From the NCBI RefSeq assembly GCF_009193175.1, contig NZ_VUKE01000012.1:62001-126000 (forward strand): a stretch of DNA of 64,000 bases. Reading direction: 5' to 3'. The stretch comes from Georgenia ruanii. GTDB taxonomy: Bacteria; Actinomycetota; Actinomycetes; Actinomycetales; Actinomycetaceae. Below are positions 8,125 through 12,517 of the stretch, piece after piece (within the stretch, counting starts at the first letter, position 1; each line of letters opens with the position of its first letter). The notes below the pieces were generated by a model. That model searched no databases and had not been told where the DNA came from. It saw nothing but the letters and a program-made list of their open reading frames with translations. A program made the translations under genes and the position numbers.

Positions 8125-8889
8125 TCAGGCGGCCGGATCCGGCGGCGGGAGGTCGTCGCGTGCGTGCGCCGCCTGCAGGGGGCGGATGAGATCGACGATC
8201 TGGTTCGACACCGAGATGCCCAGCTCCTCGTTCAGCCGCTCCTTGAACGCCCGGTAGACCCGCACCGCCTCGACGTGGTTGCCGTCCTTGAGGTGGACGC
8301 GGATGAGCGCGCGGTGCGCGCTCTCGCGCAGCGGCTCGAGCTGGACCGCCCCCATCGCGGCCTGCAGGGCCCCGTCCAGGTCGCCGTGGTCGAGAAGGCG
8401 GTCCGCCAGCGCCTCGAGCGCCCGCAGCCGCAGCTGGTGCAGCTGCTCGCGCTCTTCCAGCGCCCAGTCGTCGTACCACCCGGGCAGCAGGGTGCCGCGC
8501 CGCAGCACCAGCAGCGCCCGGGACGTGTCCGGCGGGCCCTGGCCGGCGGTGACCTGGTGGGCGATCTCGCGCAGCTCGTGCACGTCCACATGGACACCCG
8601 GGGCCAGTGCCATCATCCCCTGGGACTCTTCGAGCACCCCGTCGTGCAGGTGCTGGATGCGCCAGACGGCGGCGCGAAGGTTCCCGTGCGCGCGGGGCTC
8701 CTCGCTCTCCGGCCACAACAGCCCCGCCAGGTGCGCCCGGGGCCGCTCGCCCTGCAGGGCGAGCAGGCTGAGCAGGCGGCGCTCGCGGTAGGCCACCACC
8801 ACCGCGACGTCCCCGTCCCGCAGCTGCCAGCCGTCGAAGAGCCGCAGCGACCAGCGTGGTCCGGTGGTCGCGATCGCGTCGCTGTCCAT
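8125..8889 (-). CDS. SARP-like regulator with BTAD domain
   Basis: A transcriptional regulator of 254 residues counting from ATG 8889, which has GAGGGGG upstream. The N-terminal third (SLRLFDGWQLRDGD, ERRLLSLLALQGERPRAHLAGLLWP) is an OmpR-type winged helix as in SARP activators. The rest (HVDVHELREIA to the end) is the bacterial transcriptional activation domain, with its helical repeats and the ELGISVSNQI signature. No ATPase or TPR extension follows, so it is a short SARP. SARPs usually activate secondary-metabolite and peptide clusters. It is divergent from two small peptide genes, and a SARP-type direct repeat sits between them, so it probably controls them. A longer start at 8985 is open but less likely. 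Confidence 0.85.
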   Translation of the reverse strand: MDSDAIATTGPRWSLRLFDGWQLRDGDVAVVVAYRERRLLSLLALQGERPRAHLAGLLWPESEEPRAHGNLRAAVWRIQHLHDGVLEESQGMMALAPGVHVDVHELREIAHQVTAGQGPPDTSRALLVLRRGTLLPGWYDDWALEEREQLHQLRLRALEALADRLLDHGDLDGALQAAMGAVQLEPLRESAHRALIRVHLKDGNHVEAVRVYRAFKERLNEELGISVSNQIVDLIRPLQAAHARDDLPPPDPAA

Positions 8890-9069
8890 CGTCGGTGCGT
8901 CCCCCTCGACCCGACTCCGCGGCGTGCGCCGCCCGGCCTCACGTGTCGCCGACCGGTCGACAGCATCACGATCCCCACCTGTCACTCCACCGTCAAGGAT
9001 GAAATCGCGGATCGGGCGGTCTGCCGAAGCCCCGTCATGGCGCCGATGCCCGGCGGCGGTGCGGGCGCG

Positions 9070-9591: not shown

Positions 9592-9676
9592 GAGCCGGCC
9601 GGTCCGTCGCCCGGTGGGTGCGCCGCGTGTGGCGTGCCCGCCGGGCGGCGGTTTCTCGCAACGAGGGGGGACGGGG

Positions 9677-12517
9677 ATGTCGACCCAGACCCGCGGGCCC
9701 GCCGCCCCGCCGGTCGCGCCCGCCGGCGCCGCTCCGGACGGCGCCCCGGAAGCCGCGCGCCGGTGGCGCCGGGCCGACGGCGTGGAGTCGCTCGGGCAGG
9801 TGCAGGACTCGGGGCTGACCGCGCCGGCGTTCCTGGTGCGCCGCGGCGACGGCCAGGTGGTCCAGGTCTCCGAGCTCGTCCACCTCGTCCTCATGGCACT
9901 CAGCGCCGACCACAGCCCGGCCGAGGCCGCCGACGTCGTCAGCGCCGCGTTCGGCCGTCGCCTCAGCGTCGAGGGCCTCGACCGCCTGGTGACGACCAAG
10001 CTCGCGCCCGTCGGGCTGGTCACCGACGCCGCGGCCCCGGCGGCCCGGCCGGTCCCGCGGGCGACACCGCTGCTCGCGTTGCGCGCCAAGGTGACGCTGC
10101 TGCCGGCCGGTGCCGTCCGGTTCGTCGCCGGGGCGCTCGCGCCGCTGTACTGGCCGCCCGTCGTCGTGCTCGCGCTCGCCGCGCTGGTGGCGATGGACGT
10201 GGTGCTGTTCGTGCGCAGCGACGCCCTCGCGGCGCTGGCCGCCACGCTCGCCACGCCGGGGCTGCTCGTGGCGCTCTACGTGCTCACCGCCCTCGGCATC
10301 CTCGTCCACGAGCTCGGTCACGCGACGGCGTGCCGGTACGGCGGCGCCACGCCCGGCCGGATCGGCGCTGGGGTGTACCTCGTCTTCCCCGCCTTCTACA
10401 CCGACGTCACCGACTCCTACCGGCTGGGCCGGGCCGGCCGGCTGCGCACCGACCTCGGGGGCCTGTACTTCAACGTCTGGGGGCTGCTGGCCGCCGGGAG
10501 CGCCTACCTGCTCGGCGGGCCGCAGGTGCTGGTGCTCTACGTGCTCATCACGCACGTCCAGATGATCCAGCAGCTCATCCCCACCCTGCGCTTCGACGGC
10601 TACTACGTCCTCGCCGACCTCGCCGGCGTGCCCGACCTGTTCTCGCGGGTCGGCCCGGTCATGCGGAGCCTGGTGCCGGGGCGGGCGGCCCACCCGCGCG
10701 TCGTCGAGCTGCGCCCGCGCGCCCGCCGGCTCGTCACGGCCTGGGTGCTCGTCGTCGTCCCGACGCTGGCGGTGGGGCTGGCTTTGCTGGTGTCGAACCT
10801 GCCCGAGATCGTGCGTGTGACGCTCGACGCCGTGCGCATCCACCTCGCGACGGCGCAGCAGGCCGTCGCCGACGGCGCGCCCCTGCCGTTCCTCGGCGCC
10901 GTCTTCGCGATGGTGGTCCTCGCCCTGCCCGCCGTGGGGGCGGCGCTGGTGGTCGAGCGCACCGCGGTCATGGCGCTGCTCCCCGCGCGCCGGGCGGCCC
11001 GGGCCTGGCGGGCCCGCCACCCGCGCCCCGCACCCATCACCAAGGTGCGTCGTCACGCGACCACGACACGGAGGCCGATCATGGTCCACCCCCGGCCCGG
11101 CAGCACCGGCGCCCCCGGCGCGCCCGCCGGCACCGCCGCGCCCCAGACGGCGGACGGCCCGTCCGGGCCCGCCGCCCGGCCCCTGCCGGCCGGCCAGGGG
11201 GGCTGGGACGGCTGGCGGATCATCGGCTCCGACGTCCCGGTGGCGCCCGCGGTGCCCGCCCCCGCGCCGCCCCCGGACACGGGCGCCCCGGCCGACGAGG
11301 CCGCCGTCCCCTCGCCGGCCCCCGCCCCGCCGGCCGAGCCGGCGGCGCCCTCGCCGGCCGCACGACCGGCCGACGCCGCCGCGCCCCCGATCACGGCTCG
11401 GCCCGCCCAGCAGGCCCCCGCACCCCCCCCCCCCCCCCCCCCCCCCCCCCCCCCCCCCCCCCCCCCCCCCCCCCCCCCCCCCCCCCCCCCCCCCCCCCCC
11501 CCCCGCCCCCCCGGCCCGGCGGCGGCGCCGTCGGACGCCGATCACCTGCCCGGCGCCGGCCACCCCCTCCCGCTGACGGCGGCGGCCTTCACCGACGCGG
11601 AGATGTTCCCCGCGCCGCGGCCGGCGGCCACGCTCGGCTGGCAGCACGCCGTCCACGCGCTCTCCGGCGGGCGGATCAGCCCCCGCCCGGGTGCCGCGGA
11701 GCGCCGCCATCTGGAGGTCCTCGAGCGGGTCCGCGCGCCCATCGCCGGCTCGCGCCGAGTGGTGGTGATGAGCCGCAAGGGCGGGGTCGGCAAGACCACC
11801 CTGGCGCTCGCCCTCGGCAGCACCTTCGCGCTCGAGCGCGGCGACCGGGTCATCGCCGTGGACGCCAACCCCGACGCGGGCAACCTCGCCCACCGGCTCG
11901 CCCGCAGCGGCACCCGGCCCACCGACCGGTCCATCACCGACGTCCTGGGCGACATGGACCGCATCCACACCTACGCGGACCTGCAGGGCTACACCTCCCA
12001 GGCGCCTGAGTCCCGGCTGGAGGTGCTCGCCTCCGACGACGACCCGCGCATCTCCCTGGCCCTGACGCGGGCGTCCTACCACCGGGTCATCAGGCTGCTC
12101 GACGCCTTCTACAACCTCATCCTGCTCGACACCGGCACCGGCATCCTCGACAGCGCCAACCAGGGCCTCATCACCGACGCCGACCAGCTCGTCCTCGTCC
12201 TTCGCCCCGCGCTCGACGGCGCCCGGGCCGCCGCGCTGACCCTCGACTGGCTCGACCAGCACGGCCACGGGGACCTGGTCGAGCGCGCCGTGGTCATCGT
12301 CAACGCGGTGCGGCCGGGTGTCGGGGTACCGCTGGAGAAGATCGAGGCCCACTTCACCAAGCGGTGCGCGCACGTGCTGACCGTGCCGTGGGACGAGATG
12401 CTCGACAAGGGCGCCCAGACCGCCGTCGGGCAGCTGCGCCGGCCCACCCGCGAGGCCCTGCAACGCGCGGCAGCGGCGGTCGCCGACAACTTCGTCCGGG
12501 TCCGCGGCGGCCGGTAG
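9677..12517 (+). CDS. M50 membrane metalloprotease fused to MinD/ParA-type ATPase
   Basis: One open frame of 946 residues. The start ATG 9677 has the same ACGAGGGGGG ribosome site as peptide A. Residues about 35-115 resemble a PqqD/RRE-like domain (FLVRRGDGQVVQVSELVHLVLMAL). Residues about 150-450 are an M50 site-2-protease-like membrane domain, with zinc site HELGH (211-215), third ligand Asp307 in LRFDGYY, and several transmembrane segments. A Pro/Ala-rich linker (about 470-615) includes 27 prolines coded by the poly-C run. Residues about 690-946 form a MinD/ParA ATPase with deviant Walker A KGGVGKTT (701-708), DANPDAG and LILLDTGTG, resembling EspI-like proteins. A ribosome site and ATG at 11081 inside the linker could give a free ATPase. 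The fusion is unusual, and an error in the poly-C tract or a missed stop is possible. Confidence 0.8.
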   Translation: MSTQTRGPAAPPVAPAGAAPDGAPEAARRWRRADGVESLGQVQDSGLTAPAFLVRRGDGQVVQVSELVHLVLMALSADHSPAEAADVVSAAFGRRLSVEGLDRLVTTKLAPVGLVTDAAAPAARPVPRATPLLALRAKVTLLPAGAVRFVAGALAPLYWPPVVVLALAALVAMDVVLFVRSDALAALAATLATPGLLVALYVLTALGILVHELGHATACRYGGATPGRIGAGVYLVFPAFYTDVTDSYRLGRAGRLRTDLGGLYFNVWGLLAAGSAYLLGGPQVLVLYVLITHVQMIQQLIPTLRFDGYYVLADLAGVPDLFSRVGPVMRSLVPGRAAHPRVVELRPRARRLVTAWVLVVVPTLAVGLALLVSNLPEIVRVTLDAVRIHLATAQQAVADGAPLPFLGAVFAMVVLALPAVGAALVVERTAVMALLPARRAARAWRARHPRPAPITKVRRHATTTRRPIMVHPRPGSTGAPGAPAGTAAPQTADGPSGPAARPLPAGQGGWDGWRIIGSDVPVAPAVPAPAPPPDTGAPADEAAVPSPAPAPPAEPAAPSPAARPADAAAPPITARPAQQAPAPPPPPPPPPPPPPPPPPPPPPPPPPPPRPPGPAAAPSDADHLPGAGHPLPLTAAAFTDAEMFPAPRPAATLGWQHAVHALSGGRISPRPGAAERRHLEVLERVRAPIAGSRRVVVMSRKGGVGKTTLALALGSTFALERGDRVIAVDANPDAGNLAHRLARSGTRPTDRSITDVLGDMDRIHTYADLQGYTSQAPESRLEVLASDDDPRISLALTRASYHRVIRLLDAFYNLILLDTGTGILDSANQGLITDADQLVLVLRPALDGARAAALTLDWLDQHGHGDLVERAVVIVNAVRPGVGVPLEKIEAHFTKRCAHVLTVPWDEMLDKGAQTAVGQLRRPTREALQRAAAAVADNFVRVRGGR
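11070..11083 (+). promoter_or_regulatory. Internal ribosome binding site and start codon
   Basis: GGAGG at 11070-11074 lies six bases before an in-frame ATG (11081, Met469 of the fusion). Translation from here would make a separate Pro-rich MinD/ParA protein of 478 residues, the usual layout of EspI-like proteins. It suggests that the two halves were, or still are, two products. Confidence 0.45.
11423..11504. repeat. Poly-C homopolymer of about 82 bases
   Basis: An uninterrupted run of C from 11423 to 11504, in frame as 27 CCC proline codons inside the linker of the protease-ATPase. A single G follows, then seven more C. This is either a hypermutable tract able to switch the downstream ATPase frame or a sequencing/assembly artefact. 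Its true length cannot be trusted from one assembly. Confidence 0.9.

Follow-up and report, generated by a model that had tools for sequence, protein, structure and literature searches.

RRE-M50 proteases and their leader-bearing peptides in Georgenia and other Actinomycetota: a possible source of stackable beta-strand subunits

What would a bacterium make from two small paralogous peptides encoded beside a membrane protease? The question is raised by a cassette in Georgenia ruanii (phylum Actinomycetota; genome of 4.42 Mb), where the window, the whole 64,000-nt stretch of DNA that was analysed, encodes a SARP regulator, two paralogous 65-residue peptides, A and B, and a 946-residue protein that joins RRE, M50 protease and MinD domains in one frame. 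An earlier note on this DNA had proposed that the peptides are leader-core precursors, processed or exported by the protease under SARP control. In our analysis, processing of the peptides by the RRE-M50 protein was well supported, and we see an even prospect that the system carries out leader-directed processing and export of unmodified, stackable beta-strand subunits that would build a fibre or coat outside the cell; the assembly itself is something that we infer. The features on which the argument turns, all on the forward strand, were as follows.

9160 to 9357, forward: peptide A, 65 residues, with a putative leader at residues 1-23 (9160-9228) and core at 24-65, placed from homologues.
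9394 to 9591, forward: peptide B, 65 residues, with a putative leader at residues 1-25 (9394-9468) and core at 26-65, placed from homologues and the co-occurrence of A and B.
9677 to 12517, forward: RRE-M50-MinD fusion, 946 residues, from Pfam, NCBIfam and alignment.
9773 to 10021, forward: RRE/PqqD-like N-terminal domain, about residues 33-115, from a weak PqqD match and homology to the daptide protease.
10088 to 10954, forward: M50 site-2-protease domain with six hydrophobic segments, from alignment and hydropathy.
10307 to 10321, forward: HELGH, residues 211-215, an M50 motif.
10595 to 10597, forward: Asp307 in RFDGY, an M50 motif.
11744 to 12514, forward: MinD/ParA-type ATPase domain (PF01656, 43.5 bits).
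11777 to 11800, forward: Walker A sequence KGGVGKTT, from residue 701.

The association of peptides and protease across genomes carried most weight. The peptide profile matched 14 of 396 sampled Actinomycetota genomes; the match in G103 lay in a CxxC repeat protein, and the exclusion of that genome left 13. The RRE-M50 protein was present in 12 of these 13 and in 28 of the 396 overall (Fisher p=1.4e-14), three of the 28 (G080, G162 and G183) being weak matches and G080 a daptide-type locus. Peptide homologues without an M50 partner, which the earlier note had named as the adverse case, were therefore mostly not seen. In G064 the peptides were present and no protease was found; the peptides lay near a contig end and the CxxC gene near the end of another contig, and an assembly gap is likely because in G093 the protease lies between the peptides and the CxxC gene. 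In G222 the peptides and the protease were on separate contigs. Closer to the window, the peptide family occurred in 5 of 59 near relatives (window genome counted), and peptides and RRE-M50 were present in the same four of nine genus genomes. The same cassette recurred in G002, G007 and G008 and in a metagenome-assembled genome (MAG) of another family, bearing out the composition first described: a SARP regulator, two equal-length peptides and an M50-MinD protein. The 24 named loci with the peptide family came from Arthrobacter, Pseudarthrobacter, Sinomonas, Nocardioides, Lacisediminihabitans, Georgenia and several MAGs. The presence of the protease in 53 of 56 loci is no independent test, as these loci were collected through peptide or protease matches; the Fisher tests come closer to one.

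Peptides A and B are considered genes because their codon-position GC content was gene-like (third position 0.94 for A and 0.91 for B, vs. second position 0.36 and 0.38) and their frame was kept across loci. When the two types were distinguished by patterns that we wrote ourselves, both were present in 26 of the 27 loci belonging to their class, counting L029, whose B equals that of L025; this argues for two different jobs. Up to four peptide paralogues were found per locus. An orphan A-type peptide was also seen in Sinomonas susongensis (L039:7001-7201), with no protease in the surrounding 14 kb and a full locus (L027) in the same strain. Small basic proteins with similar N/A/N and Q spacing and no LPxRE leader adjoined the peptides in two loci (L071:8607-8825 and L079:8612-8812).

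The leader was the second line of evidence. Peptides A and B share LPxRETL and SVAAANAQQW, and the leader E-L-x-x-Q...E-x-LP-x-R-E was common to 90 distinct peptides. Short open reading frames with a D/E-L...LPx[RK] leader lay beside the RRE-M50 gene in 15 of 18 loci fetched via the protease, the pattern having been written after inspection of the same 18 loci. Its background was one match in 59 kb of the window, plus single stray matches in L141 and in L039; L147, a daptide-type locus, and L148 gave none. The three loci in which the pattern failed were L143, L144 and L145, though LPDRE occurs further inside the reading frame of L145. Seven loci (L129-L135), together with L154, each carried one precursor of 212-285 residues with APIDxAVAANxNVA-type repeats. 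As the cores differ between loci, the leader is what these precursors have in common, a part that ELExMEAP plays in daptides. The leader motif and the protease in nearly all peptide genomes support the suggestion that the peptides are leader-core precursors handled by the M50 protein, as far as sequence can indicate.

The core displayed the pattern that a pair of beta strands presenting one ladder-forming face would produce. Over the 90 sequences, column entropy alternated between 0.73 (odd) and 2.52 bits (even) in columns 25-41 (p=8e-5), and between 0.88 and 3.08 bits in columns 47-61 (p=3e-4), with column limits chosen after viewing the alignment and with L083 (a CxxC protein), L018 and L036 (from the genomes of L014 and L016) excluded; the leader columns showed no alternation (p=1.0). 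The conserved faces read N,N,A,V,A,N,A,A,N and S,A,A,A,Q,I/V,V/I,Q. SVAAANAQQW was confirmed as common to A and B, but it was not conserved beyond close relatives, as distant homologues keep the alternating N/A/Q pattern; it was dropped as a conserved cleavage site, since the strand pattern alone was retained. QW(I/L)G was also considered as WxG100-like, an idea dropped because the W was not conserved.

A partner protein pointed in the same direction. The CxxC protein consists of NxAxAxN-CxxC-TxAxAxQxV repeats, often with an N-terminus that looked signal-like by eye, and was found in 18 of 42 loci. It occurred in 15 of the 396 genomes, 13 of them with RRE-M50 (Fisher p=5e-15); in seven genomes its open frame had the same length as that of the protease, and L154 holds both in one frame. 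When the peptide core was aligned with the CxxC alignment by hhalign, the score was 27.3 (E=8e-5), with 20 column-shuffled controls at or below 14.1. The uniterated CxxC profile matched 11 of 90 peptides at E<=0.01 vs. 1 of 900 shuffled sequences, the best at 2.9e-4. A rung similar to the peptide core thus seems to recur in the CxxC protein, weakly but above controls. The AlphaFold2 model of the CxxC protein of L027 contained eight successive strands of 7-12 residues each between residues 45 and 169, with predicted local distance difference test (pLDDT) blocks of 88-95 over residues 51-170 and a predicted template-modelling score of 0.76.

In the mechanism that we propose, the SARP, where present, would activate the peptide genes. 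The N-terminal RRE domain would bind the leader of about 23 residues (E-L-x-x-Q...E-L-L-P-x-R-E-T-L) in the cytosol, and the M50 domain would cut at or just after LPxRETL, the core of about 40 residues being passed across the membrane. These reading and cleavage steps are suggested because of the gene association, the motif and the homology to the daptide protease DapP. The core would fold as one strand-turn-strand rung with an Asn/Ala and an Ala/Gln face, and A and B subunits may stack into an extracellular fibre or coat, which in many species a secreted or protease-fused CxxC repeat protein of similar rung could anchor or nucleate. Stacking is proposed because the core columns alternate, a similar rung seems to recur in the CxxC protein and this partner is predicted to consist of strands. 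Some ATPases place secretion machines, and by that analogy we would guess that in the MinD-fused branch the ATPase remains cytosolic and energises or places the protease.

A more specific form of this mechanism is tentative, and we give it well under an even chance: RRE-guided intramembrane proteolysis would release single-rung beta-solenoid subunits (or, in the sister systems, the long tandem-rung precursors), which stack onto the rung-bearing domain of the releasing protease, as a surface-fibre route besides curli and chaplins. If true, the LPx[RK]-leader/RRE-M50 arrangement would serve Actinomycetota in general as a way to secrete structural peptides that carry no modification. It would tie leader-peptide biology to surface-fibre assembly, give M50 proteases a role in secretion and provide very small encodable beta-rung building blocks. 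Ribosomally synthesized and post-translationally modified peptides (RiPPs) are found via the RRE on modifying enzymes; here the RRE is on a protease and the product looks structural, so such a branch could be missed or misfiled. In the open-access literature searched, no description was found of the CxxC protein, of the peptides or of their LPxRE leader.

Several observations weigh against the fibre or coat reading. Peptide B modelled alone yielded a pLDDT of 65 (core 71-80) and no strands, and its model had no Foldseek match. Over its residues 25-43 (19 residues) hydropathy averages 1.67, and a value of 1.6 is reached in 19 of the 90 peptides, which makes a membrane-inserted core or a membrane-active peptide possible; the maximum for peptide A was 0.37. 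The iterated CxxC profile gave E-values to 2e-10 that reflect a profile which had absorbed the peptides, and the uniterated figure is modest. No solved fold matched the CxxC model in Foldseek at E<=0.001 (best 0.16), the amyloids FapC and CsgA reached chance level only, and the partner was absent in a profile search of the window genome. Quite different cores followed the LPx[RK] leader in L136, L138, L139, L141 and L142, and the pattern found no precursor in L143 and L144. No exporter other than the protease was evident. The RRE assignment was also limited: the top Protein Data Bank match of the domain profile was PqqD, as the earlier note's description of a PqqD/RRE-like start would have it, but it was weak (E=0.5), Pfam PqqD matched 2 of 18 members (best 0.012), and one member matched the unrelated DUF3320 (2e-4). 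Searches of solved structures with peptide, CxxC and RRE profiles returned nothing significant. No Pfam or NCBIfam family matched the peptides above cut-off, nor did Pfam match A or B at E<=0.1; the tested CxxC proteins had no family above cut-off, and the Pfam matches to the tail of L083 were low-complexity.

Neighbouring genes were considered for other components. In the 56 loci, 619 called proteins gave 18 families that recur in four loci or more: the RRE-M50 protein (53 loci), SARP (25), precursors (16, a count that omits peptides below 70 residues) and 15 others. Pfam was applied to representatives of 10 of these 15 and recovered regulators of the helix-turn-helix, LuxR (7 loci) and GntR-aminotransferase (5 loci) types, along with pseudouridine synthase, phosphoenolpyruvate carboxylase, VTT, alpha/beta hydrolase (6 loci), ABC/major facilitator superfamily (MFS; 5 loci), DUF1684 and an F420 oxidoreductase. 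Several of the recurrent neighbours represented the synteny of Arthrobacter-type genomes and were housekeeping-like. No RiPP-modifying family was among the scanned families recurring in at least four of the 56 loci, a scope from which rarer or distant enzymes would escape.

Alternatively, the peptides could form a bacteriocin of the two-component kind, or act on membranes as a pair in some other way, with maturation by the RRE-M50 protein and control by the SARP; we consider this unlikely, though a serious candidate. SARPs often control antibiotic genes. The two equal-length peptides in tandem, the membrane-like hydrophobic stretch of peptide B and the short hydrophobic cores at L139 and L142 agree with this, and the peptides matured by DapP and EpeP, the closest enzymes, are bioactive according to the available text of PMC10036551 and PMC10885120. 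However, the core face is conserved across classes, and the long tandem-repeat versions and protease-fused extracellular repeats found elsewhere suit structural material. Apart from protease, SARP and precursors, the scanned families were housekeeping-like or regulators; the ABC/MFS cluster, seen in 5 of 56 loci, is at most a putative member of the system, and no immunity gene was recognised, though no search was aimed at one.

Modification of the core by an enzyme encoded elsewhere, with the RRE-M50 protein serving merely as leader peptidase, is improbable in our judgement. The combination of RRE and leader follows RiPP logic, and the daptide RRE-dependent peptidase acts after modification (PMC10036551, available text), but the conserved core residues are Asn, Ala, Ser and Gln, and the scan of recurrent neighbours returned no modifying enzyme. 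We regard as very improbable a signalling role, in which membrane-associated peptides are cleaved and thereby signal to the MinD domain or to the SARP. Regulated intramembrane proteolysis is a known activity of M50 proteases, the window branch has both a MinD fusion and a divergent SARP, and peptide B contains a hydrophobic stretch; against these stand the many loci without SARP and MinD, the lack of such a stretch in peptide A and the presence of up to four paralogues per locus.

We place the system among the RRE-site-2-protease peptide systems, with a protease that is homologous to DapP and scores under the daptide cut-off. The daptide protease DapP/MpaP (NF041824) likewise has an N-terminal RRE and an intramembrane M50 domain, with several short precursors per locus, and it removes the daptide leader (PMC10036551, available text). 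NF041824 matched the window protein at residues 52-354 with 85.1 bits, two relatives with 85 and 106 bits, and the DapP-type protein of L147 with 483 bits, against a cut-off of 300; the L147 protein was 28% identical to the window protein over 320 columns. Daptide identity was rejected on this score, and because the leader lacks ELExMEAP (ELLPxRETL here vs. the daptide motif in the available text of PMC10036551) and the C-terminal Thr, invariant in daptides, is not invariant here: the window peptides end in E and R, and 13 of 90 family members end in Thr. The C-terminal MinD or CxxC-repeat extensions are also unlike daptide proteases. No daptide oxidative decarboxylase, aminotransferase or methyltransferase was among the scanned recurrent families, where the sole aminotransferase cluster (5/56) was the GntR-type regulator; no locus-by-locus model search was made. 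The earlier note's statement that the system fits no common RiPP class agreed with our scans, but it had left the likeness of the protease to DapP unnamed and had not anticipated the possible function of the core.

The epipeptide peptidase YydH/LiaK/EpeP likewise represents M50 maturation, with suggested export of a small peptide (PMC10885120, available text). No radical SAM family was among the scanned recurrent neighbours here, again with no locus-by-locus model search, and assignment as an epipeptide protease was rejected, as NF058609 gave 46 bits with a cut-off of 225. The peptide TMcin offers a parallel, its maturation taking place in the membrane through a DUF3267 site-2 protease of the S2P clan, but differs in its protease family, its disulfide bond and the transmembrane helix in its product (PMC13252029, available text); in that text the term RRE has a count of 0.

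Likeness to curli is by analogy: in E. coli, csgD is divergent from csgBA, with subunits of 151 residues each, and the Asn/Gln-bearing strand-turn-strand repeat resembles the core. Curli subunits have a Sec signal, whereas the peptides here have a leader; curli secretion genes were not searched for. Curli membership was rejected, a further point against the fibre or coat reading, as the curlin repeat S-x5-Q-x4-N-x-A-x3-Q gave an hhalign score of 7.9, with shuffled controls up to 13.0. Chaplins and rodlins are secreted with signal peptides. They are surface amyloids of the actinobacterium Streptomyces, which has two homologous rodlins (PMC5314377, available text). Chaplin membership was rejected, PF03777 having no match to peptides A and B at E<=0.1.

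Other LPx[RK] precursors were diverse. Just before its RRE-M50 gene, G423 encodes three precursors rich in Gly and His (L136:5643-6911), which bear LPER leaders and two Cys at the C-terminus; their product is possibly metal-binding or modified. Short hydrophobic LPxR-leader peptides with a bacteriocin-like look lie beside RRE-M50 in four loci (L139:814-1157, L141:7618-7809, L142:3364-3552 and L138:3016-3168), and the chaplin model ChpA-C matched a precursor core at L145:7842-8207 below its threshold (14.6 of 21 bits). G. thermotolerans (G002) has a second, different system (L154:6045-9218) with a 226-residue tandem-repeat precursor, an LPDKE leader and an 802-residue RRE-M50-CxxC fusion.

The intact HELGH and Asp307 reported for the window protease held up, as HExGH and the Asp of DGY were invariant in 15 of 15 aligned M50 homologues; the Pfam M50 model did not match the window protein. 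MinD did not prove to be a core component and was dropped as such, since a match was found in 18 of 24 named loci but in none of 13 more remote loci, where contig ends cut several short. Among 16 chosen proteins, for which total segment counts were noisy (6-8), all 9 whose tail is of the CxxC or Ser/Pro type had an extra hydrophobic segment 233-242 residues after HExGH, and none of the 7 that carry MinD or lack an extension did. This distribution suggests that MinD would be cytosolic with the RRE and the CxxC part outside. The MinD Walker A reads KGGAHKTT, not KGGVGKTT, in the Arthrobacter-type loci L021, L025, L030 and L037. PADLOC gave a single 16-bit match, in the ATPase region of the window protein. 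Partial RRE-M50 matches, annotated as hypothetical, were found on two Streptomyces plasmids of 72,556 records (NZ_CP102333.1 and NZ_CP107797.1), covering 44-47% of the query at about 50% identity.

The remaining features of the cassette were these.

8125 to 8889, reverse: SARP-type (BTAD) regulator, divergent, with an alternative GTG start at 8985 (PF03704, 69 bits).
8890 to 9159, no strand: region of the shared regulator/peptide promoter, from alignment of four genus genomes.
9141 to 9150, forward: 10-mer ACGAGGGGGG, a probable ribosome site before peptide A, from the repeated motif.
9661 to 9670, forward: 10-mer ACGAGGGGGG before the protease gene, the same letters as before peptide A.
11423 to 11504, forward: 82 consecutive C bases within the Pro-rich linker.

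The run of C encodes poly-Pro of the linker between M50 and MinD and is possibly an assembly artefact or a slippage-prone switch; no C or G run of at least 12 occurred in the checked loci up to L083. The sharing of one 10-base ribosome site by peptide A and the protease proved distinctive, as the site occurred on the forward strand of the 64 kb only at 9141 and 9661 and never on the reverse strand. Blocks identical in the four genus genomes were found in the promoter region (CGTCAAGGxTGAAA, TCACGCxCxxGTAAC, GCTCACTGGxCACGT and GGGGGGTGA), and by codon score the ATG at 8889 outscored the GTG at 8985 as the SARP start. General control of the system by a SARP was not upheld, with a SARP seen in fewer than half of the loci (25/56). 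LuxR-type regulators were found near seven distant loci (L081, L082, L137, L141, L142, L145 and L075), where they perhaps replace the SARP.

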